DNA of 64,000 nucleotides from a virus: positions 16,621 through 80,620 of the IMG/VR virus record IMGVR_UViG_3300020704_000001; one strand, 5' to 3'. Below are positions 26,420-57,299 of the stretch, piece after piece. The notes under the pieces were generated by a model, which saw only the letters and a program-made list of their open reading frames with translations, did not search any database and had not been told where the DNA came from. Numbering within the stretch: position 1 is the first letter of the stretch; each line of letters begins with the position of its first letter. Made by a program: the position numbers and the translations under genes.

Positions 26420-27334
26420 ATGACAACTCAAATAAAATCGTCTGTTTTAGCAACTACTGCAGTAACCCAAGGGAGTTATGGCTCAACGACACTAATTCCA
26501 TCATTTACTGTTGATGCTCAAGGAAGATTACAATCTGCTACTAACAATACCCCAAGCATTTCTGCATCTTTTATAACTGGTACGCTAGCAGTCGCTTCAG
26601 GAGGTACTGGTGTTACCACTTCTACTGGCTCTGGAAGTATTGTATTAAGTACAAGTCCAACTCTTGTGACACCAATTTTAGGAACTCCAACTAGCGGTAC
26701 ATTAACTAATTGTACTGGTTATACTTATGCTAATTTAACAGGCACAGTTACTACTTGGAATCAGAGTACTACGGGTAATGCTTTGACTGCCACAACTGCA
26801 GCGTCTTGCTCAGGAAATGCTAGTACAGCAACTACAGCTGCCACGGCAACTACAGCATTAAATTTAAACGGCACTTGGACACAAATGCCAGCTGGTACAG
26901 TAACTAACTTCTTTCAGGCAGCAGCGCCAACAGGTTGGACACAAAATAATACTTATACTAACCATATGATGCGAATAGTATCAGGTGCAGGTGGTGGTTC
27001 AGGCGGTACAATGTCGCCTATTTTAAATAATGTTGTACCTTCACATACACACAGTTTTTCTACTGGCGGAACTTCTAATGATCACACACATTATGATTAT
27101 GGACATACGCATACATACTACCAATACCCAGGTAGTGGTGCACTAACTGGATGGTCAACTCCGGGTGGCGCAGCACAACCTCAATATAACCCAAATGGTG
27201 TTACAGCCACAGGTTATGCGTCTTTAACTGGACAATCTGTTAATCACACTCACTCAGGTTCAACTGATAATGGTTCAAGCCAAACAAACTGGACTCCACA
27301 ATACATAGATAATATCTTGTGCTATAAAAACTAA
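26420..27334 (+). CDS. Second tail fibre with homologous HxH tip
   Basis: 304 residues. It starts MTTQIKSSVLATTAVTQGS, has a short shaft with the GGTGVTTSTGSGSIVLSTS module, an Ala/Thr low-complexity piece, and then a tip homologous to that of the upstream fibre (PAGTVTNFFQAAAPTGWTQ, HTHSFSTGGTSNDHTH, TGYASLTGQSVNHTHSG). The tip centre (TYYQYPGSGALTG) differs, suggesting an alternative receptor specificity. A ribosome site AGGA lies before the ATG. Its last bases (27305-27334) are repeated downstream at 29846, marking the edge of a duplicated or inserted cassette. Confidence 0.75.
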   Translation: MTTQIKSSVLATTAVTQGSYGSTTLIPSFTVDAQGRLQSATNNTPSISASFITGTLAVASGGTGVTTSTGSGSIVLSTSPTLVTPILGTPTSGTLTNCTGYTYANLTGTVTTWNQSTTGNALTATTAASCSGNASTATTAATATTALNLNGTWTQMPAGTVTNFFQAAAPTGWTQNNTYTNHMMRIVSGAGGGSGGTMSPILNNVVPSHTHSFSTGGTSNDHTHYDYGHTHTYYQYPGSGALTGWSTPGGAAQPQYNPNGVTATGYASLTGQSVNHTHSGSTDNGSSQTNWTPQYIDNILCYKN

Positions 27335-27462
27335 GGAATAAAAATGAAAGAATTTATTACAGGCTATCAATATGGTGATAATATGCGCTTTTCTTGTGTA
27401 TATGTATTTCCTAATAATCTAGATAAAGATGAAATACACGTACCTCCAAGAACAACTTTAAT
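27305..27462. repeat. Direct repeat, copy 1 (cassette boundary)
   Basis: The end of the second fibre gene, its intergenic space and the first 40 codons of the small gene at 27344 recur at 29846-30010. The copies are essentially identical apart from a 7-bp insertion in the spacer of copy 2. About 2.4 kb lies between the copies. Confidence 0.9.
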
Positions 27463-42078: not shown

Positions 42079-43401
42079 ATGGCATTATTAAACGAAGAAT
42101 TAAACCTAAAATGGGGTCCAATTTTAGAGCACCCTGAATTAACTAGCATTTCTGATCCATATAAAAAAGCAGTTACTGCTATTATTTTAGAAAATCAACA
42201 AAATGCAATGGATGCTGATCGTCAAACTTTGAACGAAACAACAACTAACGTTGCTGGTGGTATTTCAAATTTTGATCCAATCTTAATCAGCTTAGTACGT
42301 CGTGCGCTTCCTAACTTAATTGCTTATGATATCGCTGGCGTTCAACCAATGACTGGCCCAACTGGTTTGATCTTTGCATTACGTTCACGTTACGGTTCAC
42401 AATCTGGCGCCGAAGCTTTCTACAATGAAGCTAATACTATCTTCTCTGGTATTATTGGTAATACTCCAGCAGGTAATACTGGTTCTACTACTGCTTCTGC
42501 TGCTTCTGCAAATAGTGCTGTTGATTCTACTGGTCCATTAGCTTTATCTAGTTTTGATACTGGTACTGGTTTAACTACTGCTTTGGGTGAAGTTTTAGGT
42601 GCATCAAACGCTTTCCCTGAAATGGGTATCTCTATCGAGAAAGTAACTGTTTCTGCTAAAACTCGTGCATTGAAAGCTGAGTACTCTTTAGAAATGGCAC
42701 AAGACTTAAAAGCAATTCATGGTCTTGACGCTGAAACTGAATTGTCTAATATTCTTTCTACTGAAATTTTATCAGAAATCAACCGTGAAGTTATCCGTAC
42801 TATCTACACTGTAGCTAAAGCTGGTGCTCAATTCGGTACTGTAACTCCTGGTATATTTGATTTAGATACTGACTCAAATGGTCGTTGGTCAGTTGAGCGT
42901 TTCAAAGGTTTGATTTATCATATCGAAAGAGAAGCTAACCAAATCGCGAAAACTACTCGTAGAGGAAAAGGTAACATCTTAATCGTTTCTTCTGATGTTG
43001 CTTCTGCTTTAGCAATGGCTGGTGTATTACAATATACTCCTGCTCTTTCTGCTGATCTACAAGTAGATGACACTGGAAATACTTTTGCTGGTTTGTTACA
43101 TGGTCGTATCAAAGTTTATATCGATCCTTATTTTGGTGGTTCTGCACAAAACGTAGAATTATGTACTGTTGGTTATAAAGGTACTTCTCCTTATGATTCA
43201 GGTTTATTCTACTGCCCATACGTTCCTTTACAAATGGTTCGTGCAGTTGATCCTTCAACTTTCCAACCAAAAATTGGATTTAAGACTCGTTACGGTTTAG
43301 TTGCTAATCCTTTTGCTGAAGGTTTAAACCAAGGTTTAGGACAATTAAATGCTCGTGCAAACTTATATTACAGAATTTTTGCTATCAAAAACTTAATGTA
43401 A
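42079..43401 (+). CDS. 23: Major capsid protein gp23
   Basis: 440 residues (T4 gp23 is 521, so shorter, as in marine relatives). Motifs: ISNFDPILISLVRRALPNL, IAYDIAGVQPMTGPTGLIF, EMGISIEKVTVSAKTRALK and LKAEYSLEMAQDLKAIHGL. An N-terminal [IL]-x-E candidate for gp21 cleavage is GPILE at residues 13-17. Codon use differs from neighbours: Arg is mostly CGT rather than AGA, and ATC, TTC and GGT are frequent, as expected for the most highly expressed protein. AAGGAG precedes the ATG. A hairpin with a TTCG loop and a strong terminator follow. No gp24-like vertex gene follows. Confidence 0.97.
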   Translation: MALLNEELNLKWGPILEHPELTSISDPYKKAVTAIILENQQNAMDADRQTLNETTTNVAGGISNFDPILISLVRRALPNLIAYDIAGVQPMTGPTGLIFALRSRYGSQSGAEAFYNEANTIFSGIIGNTPAGNTGSTTASAASANSAVDSTGPLALSSFDTGTGLTTALGEVLGASNAFPEMGISIEKVTVSAKTRALKAEYSLEMAQDLKAIHGLDAETELSNILSTEILSEINREVIRTIYTVAKAGAQFGTVTPGIFDLDTDSNGRWSVERFKGLIYHIEREANQIAKTTRRGKGNILIVSSDVASALAMAGVLQYTPALSADLQVDDTGNTFAGLLHGRIKVYIDPYFGGSAQNVELCTVGYKGTSPYDSGLFYCPYVPLQMVRAVDPSTFQPKIGFKTRYGLVANPFAEGLNQGLGQLNARANLYYRIFAIKNLM

Positions 43402-43408
43402 TAGAAAC

Positions 43409-43424
43409 TATAACTTCGGTTATA
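43409..43424 (+). other. Small hairpin with TTCG tetraloop after gp23
   Basis: TATAAC-TTCG-GTTATA is a perfect 6-bp stem closed by a UUCG tetraloop, placed 7 bp after the capsid stop and before the main terminator. It may protect the very abundant gp23 mRNA from 3' exonucleases. Confidence 0.55.
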
Positions 43425-43432
43425 TTAGGAAA

Positions 43433-43454
43433 GGGGCTGAAAAGCCCCTTTTTT
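43433..43454. terminator. Bidirectional terminator between gp23 and the glycosyltransferase
   Basis: GGGGCT-GAAAA-GCCCC stem-loop followed by TTTTTT on the plus strand and preceded by AAA, so it can end rightward gp23 transcripts and, less strongly, the leftward glycosyltransferase operon. The flanking genes converge here. Confidence 0.85.
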
Positions 43455-43458
43455 ATGC

Positions 43459-44799
43459 TTAAAAGAAAGAATCAAAAGTAACAATTTCTTCTTCAATAAA
43501 ATGATCTTTCCATAATTTATCAGCAACCCTTTTTACTTCAGGATTCTCTTTTCCAACAAGGGGTTGTTCATATTCTCCGCTATTATTACCTCCAAATGCA
43601 AGATTAATGAATTGTGAAGCAATAGTTTTTCTATCAAACGATAAAAGTTTCTTTTGATTGTTTTTAATAATTTTAAGATAATCTTTTTCATTAATATTAA
43701 AATATTGATTGATAAGATCACCAAACTCTTTTGGTGTTGCATCATGAGGAATCATTAAATAATTTTCGTTTGGTTTAAATACTTCACCAATACCTTTTTC
43801 GTTGTCTGAAACTCCAAAATTTCTAGCAATAGGGACAACACCATTAAGCATAGAATCAACAATTACTCTATTAAAATGTTCTCCATAATTCATAGACCAA
43901 CTAGGATCTAATAAAAATTTACATGTATCAAGAATTTCGTCACGCTTATTTTCGGTAATAAATCCAATATATGAGAATTTTCCTGAATTTGCAGCATTGT
44001 CCCAAATTGGCATATTTAATCTATCACTACCAGCATTTGGATCTAATTGTTTTGTACAATGATATTCTGGCTTACACTTATCAACGGAAGTCATATAATT
44101 CCTTTCAATCCCATCACCAGCTACAATAACATATCCATCAATATAGGGAACTGCTGCAATTAAATCATCAACCCTTTTCCACCGCTTAAATGTTTGTAAA
44201 GATAAAATTTTATCTTCTTTTAAAGCAAAAGATGGTATTTTCTGTTTTGATAAATCTTGAGGATTTAAAATTAAATTTCTTGGAACAGTTAAAAAATTAG
44301 CTGATTTTACTGCTGATGGGTGAACACAAGCAAGACCTGAAAATTTATGTTGAAATTTATATATCCAAGAATAATTCTTAATAAGATTTCCGTCATGAAT
44401 AACAACAATTTGTTTTGCTGTTACATCTTCAATCATTGGAGTCCAATCAAGAAAGTGTTCTGTTTCTGAATTTTTAAACCCAAAAATAGATTGCCAAATA
44501 ACCAAATCATGTTTATTTGCATCTTCCACAAATCTAGAAATTTCATTAGTGTTCTTTAAAGCATAATACGGACAAATCCAACCCTTTCCTTGATGGACTG
44601 GATATCCAGTCCCCACACCAATCTCATATCCTTCTTTTAAAGAATAATCAAGATCTCCTTTCTGAGGAGTTTTTGTTGGTTTCACAAATGCAAATGTCAC
44701 ATCATGACCAAGTTCTTTTAATCCAGCACATAACTGCTCATTATGATTAATAATTCCACCAAAATTATTAAACACATGCATAACTACAAATATTTTCAT
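43459..44799 (-). CDS. GT4-type glycosyltransferase
   Basis: 446 residues with a GT-B layout. The N-terminal domain has MHVFNNFGGIINHNEQLC, KELGHDVTFAFVKP and QIVVIHDGNLIK. The C-terminal donor-binding domain has LQTFKRWKRVDDLIAAVPY, YVIVAGDGIE, GEHFNRVIVDSMLNGVVPI and NFGVSDNEKGIG, which places it in the GT1/GT4 group using an NDP-sugar. It follows the TET/JBP-like dioxygenase by 12 bp with GAGG as ribosome site, so the two form an operon. A sugar donor cannot be named. Glycosylation of hydroxymethylated DNA bases is the leading hypothesis; glycosylation of capsid or other protein is the alternative. Confidence 0.8.
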   Translation of the reverse strand: MKIFVVMHVFNNFGGIINHNEQLCAGLKELGHDVTFAFVKPTKTPQKGDLDYSLKEGYEIGVGTGYPVHQGKGWICPYYALKNTNEISRFVEDANKHDLVIWQSIFGFKNSETEHFLDWTPMIEDVTAKQIVVIHDGNLIKNYSWIYKFQHKFSGLACVHPSAVKSANFLTVPRNLILNPQDLSKQKIPSFALKEDKILSLQTFKRWKRVDDLIAAVPYIDGYVIVAGDGIERNYMTSVDKCKPEYHCTKQLDPNAGSDRLNMPIWDNAANSGKFSYIGFITENKRDEILDTCKFLLDPSWSMNYGEHFNRVIVDSMLNGVVPIARNFGVSDNEKGIGEVFKPNENYLMIPHDATPKEFGDLINQYFNINEKDYLKIIKNNQKKLLSFDRKTIASQFINLAFGGNNSGEYEQPLVGKENPEVKRVADKLWKDHFIEEEIVTFDSFF

Positions 44800-44811
44800 T
44801 TAATTCTCGCC

Positions 44812-46230
44812 TCAGAAGAAATCTTCAATACCATTTAATTCAAATGATTTTTTTAACCATGGATGATGTTTTTCTAACCATTCATCACCTTGATCGCCTT
44901 TGGATTTTAAATAATCATACCACTCTTTTGCTCTAGCATAATCGTGATGTTTGTCTTCAGAGTCAGCCCACATTCCTGGACTTATTCCATTCCAACGGTT
45001 TCTTTGTTCTGGATGATCTTTGTTTAATCTTCTTGATTCAACAAATATTCTTCTTTCTTGTTCATACTCAAAAGAACCTAATTCAGCCATAGATTCATGA
45101 GTAAATGCAATTATTGATAATCTTTCTGCATCAGGATCCTCAAGAACAATTGGTGTATTTCCATGTAAACCAACAGTATTTAAAACTAATAATAAATCTC
45201 TTGGTCTAACATTTACAGCATAACCAATTTCAGGGAATGTTAGATAACCACCAGAAAACTTATCATTATTGCTCATGACACATAAATTTGCCATCCCTAA
45301 TTCCATATTCTTGGCGTCATGATGTGCTGCAGTTCTAAAATTACGATTCACAGTTACTGTTGTAAATGGAGTTCCTGGAACTCGAAATTTAGAATCAATT
45401 TTTTCTGCTACTTCCATTTGATTACTAAATCTCCATGGAAGTAATTCTTTAAATCCTTTAGATAAGGATTGTAAAAATGGATATGCTAATGCAAATTCTT
45501 CTGGATTATCTCTGGTATAAGATGTTGCTCTACCATATGGAATTCTTGGATATCTTGAATACCAACCAGAAATGCCACTATTAACAACATTAGCATAAGT
45601 TGTATCGCTAATATAATTATCTAAAATATCTTGTGCTTTCTTTTTTGCAATATCTACCTCTTCGTCACACAATGAATTTGCAAAATCATCAAATATAAAA
45701 TTATTTGCTTTGATTTTTTCGGTCAACCAAACAACACCCCTACTCTCATCAGATTTTAATGTTTTATATTTCTCTCTAATTATATTAATTTCTTTTCTTG
45801 GATTTCTTTCTCCAAAAATATCAGAAATATTATTTTTTAAAAAATGTTCAAGAATATCGAATTGCTCATCTGTAACCCATTCTCTTCCGCCACATGTACC
45901 TGTTCTTGGTCCACCAGCAATACCTCTATTTTGAGTTTCAACTGCTGCTTCTCGTAATCCAGCATAAGCTGAATCAGCTTCTTCTTGTGTAAAGAAGTTT
46001 TTACGGAATTTAAAAACAATATTTTTTTCGTTCAACCCCTTTCCACAATGCCCACAATCCATATTTTTTTCACAATTTTCTTCAGCTGTGAAATCAGCAC
46101 AATCTGGTGGTAAATATATATCACAATCTTCTTCTATCAATGTATGATAATGTGAATCATCTAACCATTGACCTATTAAATCTGGTCTTGGTATAACTTC
46201 TTCAGGTTTTAATACAATTACTTTTGTCAT
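44812..46230 (-). CDS. TET/JBP-family 2-oxoglutarate/Fe(II) dioxygenase
   Basis: 472 residues. The catalytic core lies at about residues 285-380: PFTTVTVNRNFRTAAHHDA supplies the H303-x-D305 pair, GGYLTFPEIGYAVNVRPRD the central strands, GLHGNTP the distal His (H356), and ERLSIIAF the 2-oxoglutarate-binding Arg (R370). Spacing (H-x-D to H about 50, H to R about 15) is as in JBP/TET proteins that oxidise the methyl of thymine or 5-methylcytosine in DNA. The N-terminal part has a C-x2-C cluster (MDCGHCGKG) and TQNRGIAGG. A sigma70-like promoter precedes it; the ATG has AGGATC upstream. The substrate is inferred. Protein hydroxylation cannot be excluded. Confidence 0.75.
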   Translation of the reverse strand: MTKVIVLKPEEVIPRPDLIGQWLDDSHYHTLIEEDCDIYLPPDCADFTAEENCEKNMDCGHCGKGLNEKNIVFKFRKNFFTQEEADSAYAGLREAAVETQNRGIAGGPRTGTCGGREWVTDEQFDILEHFLKNNISDIFGERNPRKEINIIREKYKTLKSDESRGVVWLTEKIKANNFIFDDFANSLCDEEVDIAKKKAQDILDNYISDTTYANVVNSGISGWYSRYPRIPYGRATSYTRDNPEEFALAYPFLQSLSKGFKELLPWRFSNQMEVAEKIDSKFRVPGTPFTTVTVNRNFRTAAHHDAKNMELGMANLCVMSNNDKFSGGYLTFPEIGYAVNVRPRDLLLVLNTVGLHGNTPIVLEDPDAERLSIIAFTHESMAELGSFEYEQERRIFVESRRLNKDHPEQRNRWNGISPGMWADSEDKHHDYARAKEWYDYLKSKGDQGDEWLEKHHPWLKKSFELNGIEDFF

Positions 46231-46259
46231 TTTTTGATCCTATTAATATTAATACTCAT

Positions 46260-46288
46260 AGTTTACTATACTTTTTAAATAAAGTAAA
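46260..46288 (-). promoter_or_regulatory. Sigma70-like promoter of the dioxygenase/glycosyltransferase operon
   Basis: On the minus strand, TTTACT, a 17-bp spacer, and TAAACT, with the -10 about 30 bp upstream of the dioxygenase ATG. It is a moderate match to -35/-10, unlike the TATAAATA late promoters of neighbouring structural genes, and suggests early or middle expression. Confidence 0.5.
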
Positions 46289-46344: not shown

Positions 46345-46875
46345 ATGGCTGCACAAGACTTTTCTCCATGTGATCAAGATATTTTGCAATCTGCAAAATT
46401 TATCTTTACTATTCCTAGATTAACCTCTACACAATTCTTTTGTCAGGCAGCAAATATTCCTGGAATATCAACACATGCAAAATATCAAACTACTACATTT
46501 TTAGACCTAGCAATTCCAGGCGATAAAATAATTTTTGAGGATTTAAATATAGAATTTTTGTTAGATGAGGAATTGCAGTCATGGATTGGAATAAGTGAAT
46601 GGATGCGGGGTATTGCGTTTCCTGAAAATTTTGATCAATATATAAATTTAAGGCATCAATCAAAATATAGTGAACGAGTAGAATTCCCTCAATATGCTGA
46701 TGCAGAATTGGTTGTTTTATCTTCATCAAATCAACCAACAGTAAAAGTATATTTTAAAGATTTATTTCCTATTTCTTTATCTGCGATAGACTTTGATATA
46801 AGATTGAGTTCTGAAAAAGTAATGACAGCATCTGCGTCCTTTAAATATAAAAGGTATGATGTAGAAATATTGTAG
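46345..46875 (+). CDS. Tail-tube-fold structural protein (gp3/gp19-related)
   Basis: 176 residues: FSPCDQDILQSAKFIFTIP, FFCQAANIPGISTHAKYQT, IPGDKIIFEDLNIEFLLDE, then SWIGISEWMRGIAF and late strands with VKVYFKDLFPISLSAIDFD. The order of strands is that of the gp19 tube family, with the LPG/IPGIS and PGD signatures. T4 gene 3 (tail terminator, 176 residues) is the same length, so gp3 is a candidate, but a second tube-like protein is equally possible. It is preceded by its own late promoter and AAGGAA, and followed by uvsY. Confidence 0.6.
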   Translation: MAAQDFSPCDQDILQSAKFIFTIPRLTSTQFFCQAANIPGISTHAKYQTTTFLDLAIPGDKIIFEDLNIEFLLDEELQSWIGISEWMRGIAFPENFDQYINLRHQSKYSERVEFPQYADAELVVLSSSNQPTVKVYFKDLFPISLSAIDFDIRLSSEKVMTASASFKYKRYDVEIL

Positions 46876-50439: not shown

Positions 50440-51111
50440 ATGAAAGAATTAGATTTAGATTTAGATATAAGGTTTGATGAAGTCATACCAGAAGAAATTA
50501 TTCCTGAGGAAATCTTTTTAGATGATCCTATAAAAGACGAAACTGTAAAAGTTAAAAGGAAGAAGGTTCCAAAGAATTATATTAATAATGCAGATTTTTA
50601 TGAAGCTATTGTAGAATATAAGAAAAAATGTGATTTAGCTAAAGAAAATGGAACAAAAAAACCGATTGTTTCCAATTATATTGGTGAGTGTTTTACAAAG
50701 TTAGCAGAGGGTCTTTCTAGAAGACCAAATTTTTTCGGTTATTCTTATCGTGATGAAATGGTTTCTGATGGTATAGAAAATTGTTTGAGATATATTGAAA
50801 ATTTTAATCCAGAAAAAACAAAAAACCCTTTTGCATATTTTACCCAAATATTATGGTGGGCTTTTGTTCGTAGAATTAAAAAAGAAAAAACACAACAATA
50901 CATCAAATATAAAGCTACAGAAAATTTTGGTATTTTAGATACTGCTGAATTGATGGAATTGGGTGATGGAAATATTAAACAAATTGAAGTTTATGATAAT
51001 TTATATGAGTATATTAAGAAATTTGAAGAAACATCTTTAAAGAAAACAGAAAAACCCATAAAAGAAAAGCAAATTAAAGTTTGTGGAATTGAAACTTTCT
51101 TGGAGGGTTAA
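50440..51111 (+). CDS. 55: Late-transcription sigma factor gp55
   Basis: 223 residues (T4 gp55 is 185; the extra part is an acidic N terminus). Region-2-like core: YRDEMVSDGIENCLRYIEN, FNPEKTKNPFAYFTQILWW and AFVRRIKKEKTQQYIKYKA, the familiar part that contacts the core polymerase and recognises TATAAATA. Seven exact TATAAATA motifs at gene starts elsewhere in this window are consistent with its activity. Its co-activator gp33 is not recognised here. The stop is joined to gp47 through TAATG. Confidence 0.93.
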   Translation: MKELDLDLDIRFDEVIPEEIIPEEIFLDDPIKDETVKVKRKKVPKNYINNADFYEAIVEYKKKCDLAKENGTKKPIVSNYIGECFTKLAEGLSRRPNFFGYSYRDEMVSDGIENCLRYIENFNPEKTKNPFAYFTQILWWAFVRRIKKEKTQQYIKYKATENFGILDTAELMELGDGNIKQIEVYDNLYEYIKKFEETSLKKTEKPIKEKQIKVCGIETFLEG

Positions 51112-54509: not shown

Positions 54510-55304
54510 ATGGAAATAAAAATTAGTAAAGAAACATTGGAAGGAAAATCAATATTTATTGCAACACCAATGTATGGTGGTCAATGCCTTGGTATGTATA
54601 TGAAATCTTGTTTGGACCTTCAAACATTATGTATCCAATATGGTGTTGAAATTAAATTCTCATTTCTTTTTAATGAGAGTCTTATCCAAAGAGCTAGAAA
54701 TTATCTAGTTGATGAATTTGTACGGTCTTCATGCACACATATGATGTTTATTGATGCAGATATTTCTTTCAATCCAATTGATATTCTTGCAATGATCTCT
54801 TTGGATAAAGATATTATTGGCGCACCATATCCAAAGAAAACTATTAAGTGGTCTAATGTCAAAAAGGCTATTTTAAAAAATCCAGATATTGATGTTGGGG
54901 AATTAGAAAAACTTGGTGGTGATATTGTATTTAATCCAGTTGCTGGGACAGAAAGATTTAGTGTAACAGATCCTCTTGAAGTATTGGAAGTTGGTACTGG
55001 AATGATGATGATTCGTAGAGATGTTTTTGAGCGATATAAAGAAGCATATCCAGAATATTCTTATCTTCCTGATCATGTTGGTACTGCAAATTTTAGTGGT
55101 GATAGAGAGATTATGTCATATTTTAATGTTGAGATTGATCCAGGATCAAGAAGAACTTTGAGTGAAGATTATCACTTCTGTCAGCATAGTAGAAAAATTG
55201 GTATTCAAATTTGGATGGCTCCATGGATTATTTGTGGTCATACTGGAACCTATATGTTCCAAGGAAGTCTTCCTTCAATTGCAGCAAATTTGGGCGAATT
55301 ATAA
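54510..55304 (+). CDS. GT-A type glycosyltransferase-like protein
   Basis: 264 residues. The DAD motif is in MMFIDADISFNPIDILAM, next to a strand-helix with LIQRARNYLVDEFVRSS; the acceptor side has GTGMMMIRRDVFERY, LSEDYHFCQHSRK and a terminal WIICGHTGTYMFQGS. This is typical of metal-dependent GT-A glycosyltransferases of phages. The sugar and target are unknown. The ATG lies 23 bp after the deformylase-like gene with AAGGTG upstream. The donor-binding and DxD residues appear intact. Confidence 0.7.
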   Translation: MEIKISKETLEGKSIFIATPMYGGQCLGMYMKSCLDLQTLCIQYGVEIKFSFLFNESLIQRARNYLVDEFVRSSCTHMMFIDADISFNPIDILAMISLDKDIIGAPYPKKTIKWSNVKKAILKNPDIDVGELEKLGGDIVFNPVAGTERFSVTDPLEVLEVGTGMMMIRRDVFERYKEAYPEYSYLPDHVGTANFSGDREIMSYFNVEIDPGSRRTLSEDYHFCQHSRKIGIQIWMAPWIICGHTGTYMFQGSLPSIAANLGEL

Positions 55305-55989: not shown

Positions 55990-56093
55990 TGAGCAGTGCT
56001 CTTAGGTACTCTAATGGTAAGAGATTTGACTGTTAATCAAACGTATACAGAAATGTTATGGGGGTTCGAGTCCCTCCCTAAGAGCACTGCTCA
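55990..56093 (+). other. 17-bp perfect stem enclosing tRNA-Asn
   Basis: The leader 55990-55999 pairs exactly with the trailer 56084-56093, extending the 7-bp acceptor helix (56000-56006 with 56077-56083) to 17 consecutive base pairs. The discriminator base is part of this extension. Confidence 0.8.
56000..56084 (+). tRNA. tRNA-Asn (GTT), atypical
   Basis: Acceptor TCTTAGG/CCTAAGA, D-arm CTCT-AATGGTA-AGAG, anticodon arm TTTGA-CTGTTAA-TCAAA with anticodon GTT (56032-56034), T-arm GGGGG-TTCGAGT-CCCTC and discriminator G, as in bacterial tRNA-Asn. CCA is not encoded. The variable region is 18 nt (56042-56059) instead of about 5, and contains a small ACA-GAAA-TGT hairpin. Leader and trailer extend the acceptor stem by 10 bp. 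Confidence 0.75.
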
Positions 56094-56105
56094 TTTAAAT
56101 AAATT

Positions 56106-56198
56106 ACAAGGTAAAATCTTGAAAGAAAACACTTCAAAGGTCGGGAGATACACTTTGAATAGTGGTGCAGTAAAAGTCTGTGATATCTCCCCCTTGTT
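56106..56198 (+). other. Structured inter-tRNA element
   Basis: Nested complementarity: ACAAGG (56106-56111) with CCTTGT (56193-56198), an inner TTGAA/TTCAA hairpin, and GGGAGATA (56143-56150) with TATCTCCC (56184-56191) enclosing CACT/AGTG and CAG/CTG hairpins. It has no T-loop motif. It could be a decayed tRNA or a processed spacer RNA. I see no known family. Confidence 0.35.
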
Positions 56199-56200
56199 TT

Positions 56201-56276
56201 GAGGATGGTAGCTCAATGGTAGAGCAGTTTGTTAGAAATAACATTTAAGCATGGGTTCGAATCCCATCGTTCCTCA
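56201..56276 (+). tRNA. tRNA-like gene with abnormal anticodon arm
   Basis: D-arm GCTC-AATGGTA-GAGC and T-arm ATGGG-TTCGAAT-CCCAT are normal. The acceptor GAGGATGG/CGTTCCTC has two mismatches. The anticodon region folds as TGTTA-GAAA-TAACA, a 5-bp stem with a GAAA tetraloop, instead of a 7-base loop; I cannot assign an anticodon. CCA is absent. It is either a decayed tRNA or a tRNA mimic. Confidence 0.55.
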
Positions 56277-56286
56277 CTTAGTTTAT

Positions 56287-56362
56287 CTCTCTGTAGTGTA
56301 GTCTGGTAACATGATGCGTTTGGGGCGCATTGTCCTTCGTTCAAATCGAAGCAGAGAGACCA
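56287..56362 (+). tRNA. tRNA-Pro (TGG)
   Basis: Acceptor CTCTCTG/CAGAGAG, D-arm GTGT/ACAT, anticodon arm ATGCG-TTTGGGG-CGCAT with anticodon TGG, T-arm CTTCG-TTCAAAT-CGAAG, discriminator A, and an encoded CCA. A complete, well-formed tRNA. Confidence 0.92.
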
Positions 56363-56366
56363 GTTT

Positions 56367-56457
56367 GGAAGAGTGGTTGAGTGGTTTAAGACAGCAGTCT
56401 TGAAAACTGTCGAGGGTTAATACCCCTCCGTGGGTTCGAATCCCACCTCTTCCGCCA
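56367..56457 (+). tRNA. tRNA-Ser (TGA)
   Basis: Acceptor GGAAGAG/CTCTTCC, anticodon loop CTTGAAA with anticodon TGA, a long class II variable arm (GAGGG-TTAATA-CCCCTC), T-arm GTGGG-TTCGAAT-CCCAC, discriminator G and encoded CCA. Confidence 0.93.
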
Positions 56458-56462
56458 TTTTC

Positions 56463-56540
56463 GCACCACTAGCTCAATTGGTTAGAGCTCTCCGCTCATA
56501 ACGGATAGGTTCTGGGTTCAAATCCCAGGTCGGTGCACCA
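56463..56540 (+). tRNA. tRNA-Met or tRNA-Ile2 (CAT)
   Basis: Acceptor GCACCAC pairs with GT-C-GGTGC with one bulged C, D-arm GCTC/GAGC, anticodon arm CTCCG-CTCATAA-CGGAT with anticodon CAT, T-arm CTGGG-TTCAAAT-CCCAG, discriminator A and encoded CCA. The first pair is G-C, so it is not an initiator. Met elongator and lysidine-modified Ile2 cannot be told apart by anticodon alone. Confidence 0.85.
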
Positions 56541-56615: not shown

Positions 56616-57299
56616 ATGAAAATATCACCAGAAACAAATGCGATTCTAAAAAACTTCGCACATATTAATCAATCATTATTCTTTAAAAAAGGTTCTGTCA
56701 TCTCAACTATGAGTCCACAAAAGAATATTCTTGTTGATGCAACAATTACAGAAACTATACCACAAGATTTTGGTATTTACGATTTAAATAATTTTTTATC
56801 TGTGACATCATTATTTAAAGATGGCTCTGAATTAGAATTTGATCAAAATCATGTAATTATCAAAGGTTTGAATGGTAGGTCAAAAATTAAATACCGTATT
56901 ACTGATCCATCAATGATTGTAGTTGCTCCAGATAAACGTCCCAAACTTCCAGTTGTTGATGTTAAATTTACATTCTCAAAAGAAGATCTAGAATGGGTTA
57001 TTAAAACAGCGTCTGTTATTGGTGCACCACATTTAGCTGTTGAATCAGACGGTACAACTGTATCATTAGTGACATTTGATGAGAGTAATGATGCAGGTCA
57101 TACAAACTCATTAGAAATGAGTGATGTGGATCCAGAAGGAAATGTGTTTAAATTAGTTTATAAAACTGAAAATTTAAAAGTTATTCCTGATTCATATTCT
57201 GTTGAAATTAGTTCTAAAGGTATTTCAACATGGACTTCAATAACTAATGAAATTAAATATTACATTACATTAGAAACATCAAGTAAATTTGGAGGGTAA
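56616..57299 (+). CDS. 45: Sliding clamp gp45
   Basis: 227 residues (T4 gp45 is 228). N terminus MKISPETNAILKNFAHINQ and SLFFKKGSVISTMSPQKN, central FGIYDLNNFLSVTSLFKDG and GLNGRSKIKYRITDPSMI, C-terminal ISSKGISTWTSIT. It forms the trimeric clamp for the DNA polymerase and is required for late transcription with gp55. The ATG has AGGAAA. Its last codons hold the GGAGGG ribosome site for the next gene. Confidence 0.95.
   Translation: MKISPETNAILKNFAHINQSLFFKKGSVISTMSPQKNILVDATITETIPQDFGIYDLNNFLSVTSLFKDGSELEFDQNHVIIKGLNGRSKIKYRITDPSMIVVAPDKRPKLPVVDVKFTFSKEDLEWVIKTASVIGAPHLAVESDGTTVSLVTFDESNDAGHTNSLEMSDVDPEGNVFKLVYKTENLKVIPDSYSVEISSKGISTWTSITNEIKYYITLETSSKFGG

Follow-up and report, generated by a model that had tools for sequence, protein, structure and literature searches.

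We analyzed a stretch of 64,000 nucleotides (hereafter the window) that comprises bases 16621-80620 of the 80,620-base virus record IMGVR_UViG_3300020704_000001, a fragment of the genome of a T4-like phage. In this window, two minus-strand genes fill the slot between the genes of the major capsid protein (gp23) and of the tail tube. One encodes a dioxygenase of the TET/JBP family (hereafter TET), the other a glycosyltransferase (GT) of the GT4 type, and the pair is almost certainly devoted to the hypermodification of DNA bases. We lean towards a more specific reading, in which the two genes form a clamp-coupled cassette for the hypermodification and glycosylation of thymine. Phage TETs accompanied by glycosyltransferases are an already known kind of system. 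The novelty here lies in a GT-B family tied to TET, in the exchange of modules behind one TET, and in C-terminal tails that match those of the DNA polymerases. The original prediction, made from the sequence of the window, had proposed DNA hypermodification by the two enzymes, which is well supported by the swapping of the module with TAGT and thymine-hypermodification genes, but it had overlooked the clamp-type tails.

A TET/JBP dioxygenase and its dedicated glycosyltransferase

The first gene (44812..46230, minus strand) encodes a 2-oxoglutarate- and Fe(II)-dependent dioxygenase of 472 amino acids. It matches the Pfam family Tet_JBP (PF12851) with an E-value of 7.6e-28 and 97.2 bits, for a curated cut-off of 34.9, with the domain covering residues 226-379 (45094-45555, minus strand), and phmmer also matches it to TET2. 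The iron ligands H303, D305 and H356 and the 2-oxoglutarate-binding R370 are found in this order and are invariant among 34 aligned homologues. In the Protein Data Bank (PDB), the best 26 matches of its AlphaFold2 model (pLDDT 87) are CcTet, TET2, CMD1 and NgTET1, and FTO and the prolyl hydroxylases only come after. Hence, the protein is a true TET/JBP dioxygenase, as the original prediction had read from the four residues, and both the proposed profile comparison and the fold place it with the nucleic-acid dioxygenases, not with the hydroxylases of proteins or small molecules. Its putative activity is to oxidize pyrimidines in DNA at their 5-methyl group.

The second gene (43459..44799, minus strand) starts after a gap of 12 bp (44800..44811, minus strand), a distance consistent with co-transcription. 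Its product of 446 amino acids matches Glycos_transf_1/GT4 (PF00534; E=1.1e-8, 35.3 bits for a cut-off of 26.4) and is modeled by AlphaFold2 with a GT-B fold, which agrees with the GT4-type enzyme expected at this place. The best Foldseek matches of the model by E-value are GT4 enzymes (about 1e-12), and structures of the T4 alpha-glucosyltransferase (alpha-GT) with DNA are among the top query-normalised TM-scores (0.58-0.59). The TAGT domain PF20691 was not found in the protein by the Pfam search, a profile search of the PDB that started from the GT alignment gave no match, and there is no specific family for this GT4 in Pfam, PHROG, NCBIfam or PADLOC.

To describe this family, we searched for viral relatives with the GT alignment; 137 were reported, and the best 80 were kept, resulting in 50 distinct proteins. 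A TET is encoded in the fetched stretch of 46 of them, typically about 10 bp or less apart, and the remaining four begin less than 700 bases from the end of their contig. In other words, the 46 testable cases are all linked to TET. Among 50,697 records of phage isolates, the family had zero matches, including when the query was a 64%-identical relative, and a pattern-based, non-exhaustive scan of genome contigs confirmed none in bacteria. Hence, the GT4 family is dedicated to TET.

One might have expected a different function for such an enzyme, namely the glycosylation of the virion (capsid or tail) or of the host envelope, with TET as an unrelated neighbor. The cassette is indeed flanked by the late structural genes gp23 and gp19, and GT4 enzymes often act on surface glycans or lipids (PimA and WaaG are in the Foldseek list). 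Yet, because the family is tied to TET, mostly at distances of about 10 bp, a role in modifying virion or envelope is unlikely. Furthermore, in the position behind TET, which in many lineages is away from capsid genes, the GT takes the place of TAGT or of an amino-acid:DNA-transferase (ADDT) set, and a polymerase-type tail is present on 50 of the 50 proteins. Altogether, we give very little credit to this alternative: when checked against a grouping with capsid-modifying enzymes, the GT fell into a family linked to TET. It very likely glycosylates the product of TET.

Exchange of partners behind TET and the likely substrate

To assess the diversity of these modules, we gathered 86 distinct TET loci from uncultivated viruses and annotated phages. 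In the close relatives, TET occupies the same slot, with gp23 on one side and the tail tube gene on the other, while its downstream partner varies: it can be the GT4, a TAGT of 269 amino acids (PF20691), a lone P-loop kinase, or a set of five genes encoding a GATase, an amidoligase, a low-molecular-weight phosphatase, an ADDT (PF18724) and a P-loop kinase. In the wider family, TET lies in a replication operon behind gp43, uvsX and a helicase, and there the GATase/amidoligase/ADDT/kinase set is the most frequent. The three kinds of partner are mutually exclusive, with the sole exception of Cr30, where TAGT occurs together with an ADDT-like gene. Identity between TETs that differ in their partners reaches 90% (loci L011 and L013). 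Mapped on the tree of TETs, the four partner labels require 21 changes, for a minimum of 3, and the strongly supported branches impose 7 changes for GT4 alone. The ADDT set is found in sister phages behind TETs that are 66-72% identical to that of the window. In the lineage of the window itself, ADDT and the DNA kinase were not seen behind TET, the remainder of the genome not having been searched for them. Judging from these sequences, a single TET lineage supplies several tailoring systems. Since partners are swapped behind such similar TETs, one TET product must suit several of these systems, and this shared product is most likely 5-hydroxymethyluracil (5hmU).

Some loci depart from these arrangements. 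A GIY-YIG-like open reading frame (ORF; L004:11402-12124, minus strand) and an HNH/homing endonuclease (L008:13080-14522, plus strand) lie in the TET slot of relatives, and such endonucleases are a possible means of module exchange. In C48C1 (L024:13335-15367), TET is followed by a protein of 344 amino acids without assigned function and then by a UDP-galactopyranose mutase, which suggests a galactofuranosyl tailoring branch. In L084-L086, where the usual set is missing, a GT-A-like protein of 266 amino acids with the tail NTLDEFFG is found around 2.1 kb behind TET. Finally, in Cr30, DLP6, S-CBWM1 and HTVC112P (L022, L023, L025, L026), the annotation calls the TETs SNF2 DNA repair protein and the module kinases terminase small subunit or adenylate kinase, names that look mistaken.

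The substrate of TET could be thymine or 5-methylcytosine (5mC). No C5-methyltransferase had been noticed in the window, and we found none in the whole 80,620-base record either. The same search found none in 33 other related virus records, nor in Cr30, DLP6, C48C1 and S-CBWM1. This set includes GT4-bearing contigs of 197, 169 and 147 kb, and the genomes of Cr30, DLP6 and C48C1 are complete. As a positive control, the search recovered the C5-methyltransferase located directly before the distant TET of Melnitz. The ADDT family PF18724 is found in 374 phage records, foremost in ViI-like phages, and is also encoded by ViI, M6 and phiW-14, whose DNA contains hypermodified thymidine made via 5-hydroxymethyldeoxyuridine (5hmdU), which is phosphorylated and then tailored (PMC6449724). 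We also considered a dUMP/dCMP hydroxymethylase as the source of the hydroxymethylated base, which was rejected because the thymidylate-synthase family was seen only in Cr30 among the relatives examined. Given the link with ADDT and the lack of C5-methyltransferases and, except in Cr30, of thymidylate-synthase-type enzymes, thymine in DNA is the simplest substrate. The preference of the original prediction for thymine is thus well supported by the swapping with TAGT and thymine-hypermodification genes and by the absence of C5-methyltransferases, and we regard thymine as the likely substrate, with good confidence.

The same two steps might instead take place on cytosine, TET converting 5mC to 5-hydroxymethylcytosine (5hmC) before the GT acts, the 5mC being made by the host or by a phage methyltransferase whose gene lies beyond the record. 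The closest solved folds, TET2 and CcTet, fit this route, as does Melnitz, a distant T4-like phage where a C5-methyltransferase directly precedes TET. Metagenomic phage TETs acting on 5mC were reportedly described by Burke et al. in PNAS in 2021, a study cited in PMC10273834. Two further points count against thymine. The window TET has HHDAKNM where TET2 has HRDLHNM, so that the aligned active-site positions are kept and these residues alone cannot discriminate between thymine and 5mC; and the record is an incomplete fragment of 80.6 kb, such that a C5-methyltransferase may be encoded elsewhere in the genome. Still, C5-methyltransferases are absent from 34 related records (with GT4 contigs of 146-197 kb) and from the complete Cr30, DLP6 and C48C1, and the module fed by close relatives of the TET is of the ADDT type, the known members of which work on thymine-derived bases. 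We therefore hold the cytosine route to be unlikely. The window TET has 42% identity with that of DLP6, whose DNA is listed as restriction-resistant (PMC8228603), the corresponding sentence in the original DLP6 paper being garbled.

C-terminal tails and the sliding clamp

The window TET ends with GIEDFF and the GT with TFDSFF, and the last five residues of each form a tail resembling a clamp-binding peptide (IEDFF-COOH at 44815..44829 and FDSFF-COOH at 43462..43476, both on the minus strand). The motif follows the scheme S-[LI]-[ED]-x-[FL]-F, and in most cases no more than one residue comes after it. It ends 102 of 107 TET homologues, in which the preceding sequence is divergent, and, with a slightly wider pattern, the 50 distinct GT4s. 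In the fetched stretches, it is present on 9 of 9 GT4s, 10 of 11 TAGTs and 27 of 27 DNA polymerases (gp43) of the family, against a background of 5 in 523 other ORFs and around 0.1-0.3% of shuffled tails. Three of these five background ORFs are the GT-A-like protein behind TET. Among the 62 ORFs of the window, only TET and GT carry the strict motif.

In T4, gp43 ends with ASLDFLFG and gp55 with SLDFLYEAND. The polymerase tail (892-SLDFLF-897, the CIP) fits into a pocket on the clamp, gp45 (PMC12746103). The gp55 tail binds gp45, and gp43, gp55 and gp33 can exchange their tails (PMC2988020). The association of a DNA glycosyltransferase with the clamp has a precedent, since the T4 alpha-GT binds gp45 (PMC13216743). 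Because their tails resemble the clamp-binding peptide of T4-type polymerases, it is probable that the TET and GT of the window dock on the gp45 clamp. The window encodes a candidate for this clamp, a gp45-like protein (56616..57299, plus strand; PF02916 match in the 80,620-base record at G000:73239-73448 with E=1.7e-5, under the curated cut-off). It also encodes a gp55-like late sigma factor (50440..51111, plus strand), assigned from gene order as it adjoins gp47, which ends with GIETFLEG and is likely a native clamp client with a TET-like tail.

Genome-wide scans of related phages revealed few tailed proteins, chiefly the DNA polymerase and DNA-modifying enzymes. The latter include TET, TAGT, ADDT, a D12 adenine methyltransferase of C48C1 (L122:13680-14564, plus strand) and a Mom-family DNA modifier of Melnitz (Melnitz-3 L198:11071-11880, plus strand), both with a polymerase-type tail. 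In phiW-14, the DNA polymerase and ADDT both end with LGxFF. In ViI, the polymerase, kinase and ADDT share a tail style like [VA][NS]L[LM]x[LM][LM], a pattern that was noticed post hoc and in which the strict motif fails. The tail loci are at 85893-86825, 26496-27356 and 81188-81487 of NC_013697 (phiW-14) and at 149619-150533 and 151076-152311 of NC_015296 (ViI). An exonuclease and a small NrdA.1-like protein of phiW-14 are also tailed. We found no published description of these tails in the literature searched, outside of which lie most subscription journals.

The SLExFF tail might also be another shared docking tag, directed for instance to SSB or a helicase. The motif is short, its binding to gp45 is predicted, and some baseplate proteins carry it. 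On the other hand, the tail recurs on the clade's own DNA polymerases (27/27) and resembles the gp45-binding tail of T4 gp43, its style tracks that of the polymerase in phiW-14 and ViI, and it is missing from the TETs of phages without detected gp45. We thus deem another docking partner improbable. The phages in question are six, with genomes of 32-70 kb. As PF02916 misses gp45 in some T4-like records, such as the 197-kb G009, the absence of gp45 judged by this model is weak evidence alone.

Besides these misses and the shortness of the motif with its presence on a baseplate protein, other observations weigh against the clamp-coupled reading as a whole. The T4 alpha-GT lacks a clamp tail at its end despite binding gp45. 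The strict motif is present on only 2 of 29 ADDTs and 3 of 21 kinases, and is lacking in the TETs of Cr30 and S-CBWM1. The GT4 model has moderate confidence (pLDDT 79), with disorder over its last 11 residues. As for baseplates, the T4_baseplate-family proteins of DLP6 (L118:16867-17568, minus strand), C48C1 and Melnitz end in a similar tail.

Proposed mechanism, known systems and genomic neighborhood

In the clamp-coupled thymine pathway that we favor, TET, whose family and fold are established, would act on thymine in freshly synthesized phage DNA, hydroxylating its 5-methyl group to give 5hmU. The GT would then move a sugar from a nucleotide-sugar donor onto the hydroxymethyl group, in analogy with the action of the T4 alpha-GT on 5hmC; its activity, sugar and linkage are conjectural. 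Through their tails, both enzymes would probably ride on gp45 and modify DNA just behind the fork, and the modified genome would be shielded from nuclease-based host defenses. The presence of clamp tails on both enzymes suggests that phage DNA is camouflaged while it is being copied. In a broader reading, for which we see as many grounds for belief as for doubt, hypermodification would generally be coupled to replication by polymerase-matched clamp peptides, gained separately by TET, GT4, TAGT, ADDT, at least one D12 methyltransferase and one Mom. The GT4s would be a new TET-dedicated family producing glycosyl-5hmU, an analogue of base J, and a clamp-borne relay would alter the bases while the fork passes.

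Several known systems resemble this cassette. Modules of TET/JBP and TAGT in phages were reportedly predicted by Iyer and Aravind. Operons of TET/JBP and TAGT (PF20691) in mycobacteriophages and Arthrobacter phages have, like the window, a dioxygenase followed by a glycosyltransferase, but TAGT is a GT-A whereas the enzyme of the window is a GT-B/GT4, and the actinophage TETs that we checked lack a clamp tail. The 5mC-directed phage systems of the Melnitz type have in common with the window the TET family and nearby tailoring genes; they differ by the C5-methyltransferase beside TET, of which none was found in the clade of the window. Sister TET loci share with ViI, M6 and phiW-14 an ADDT and a kinase in kind, and 5hmU is the proposed common intermediate. 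However, the kinases of the sister loci are of another family, since PF18751 was not found in ViI, M6 and phiW-14, and the window uses a glycosyltransferase in place of kinase and ADDT. Moreover, 5hmdU enters the DNA of these phages as a nucleotide (PMC6449724), whereas the TET of the window would make 5hmU within DNA.

The T4 alpha-GT (GT72; PDB 1y6f, 1ya6, 1y6g) glycosylates DNA bases and has a GT-B fold like the window GT, although their sequence similarity is undetectable. It is physically linked to gp45 (PMC13216743) without a C-terminal clamp tail, whereas the link of the window GT to gp45 is predicted from its tail, and T4 draws its 5hmC from the dNTP pool. In kinetoplastids, base J is synthesized by JBP and a glucosyltransferase, which turn thymine into 5hmU and then glycosyl-5hmU in DNA. 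This is the same route as the one proposed here, with a eukaryotic and unrelated glycosyltransferase, and we know of no link to the clamp in base J synthesis.

If our reading is true, uncultivated phages have a route to base-J-like DNA and a new family of DNA glycosyltransferases. A polymerase-matched C-terminal tail would be a simple sequence rule to predict phage proteins acting at the fork, and the complete and early self-modification of phage DNA would become addressable through a tail of six residues. TET and its exchangeable partners would then be a set of tools to write varied marks on thymine.

The cassette is bordered by gp23 (42079..43401, plus strand; PF07068, E=2.8e-144) on one side and by the gp19-like tail tube protein (46345..46875, plus strand; PHROG 45, E=6e-31, and PF23849) on the other. 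Both are late genes, antiparallel to the pair. Between the convergent GT and gp23 lies a GC-rich hairpin flanked by A/T runs (43420..43460), which reads as a bidirectional terminator; it was recognized by eye only and is missing from the computed feature scan. A sigma70-like promoter had also been proposed for the pair and used to argue that it acts during replication. Neither the promoter nor the argument on timing drawn from it is supported: the region has 11 sigma70-like matches, fewer than the 18.4 expected by chance, and the 114-bp gap that precedes TET has none on its minus strand. Nor does the window show an enrichment of TATAAATA, the late-promoter octamer of T4.

The second glycosyltransferase gene noted earlier does exist (54510-55304), but its suggested role in adding a further sugar was rejected. 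Its family occurs in 71 phage records, most without detected TET, and the gene is kept in relatives regardless of the type of module. Hence, we did not count it in the module. Further along, at positions 56000-56540, five tRNA genes, including one for Ser tRNA (anticodon AGA), lie directly upstream of the gp45-like gene.

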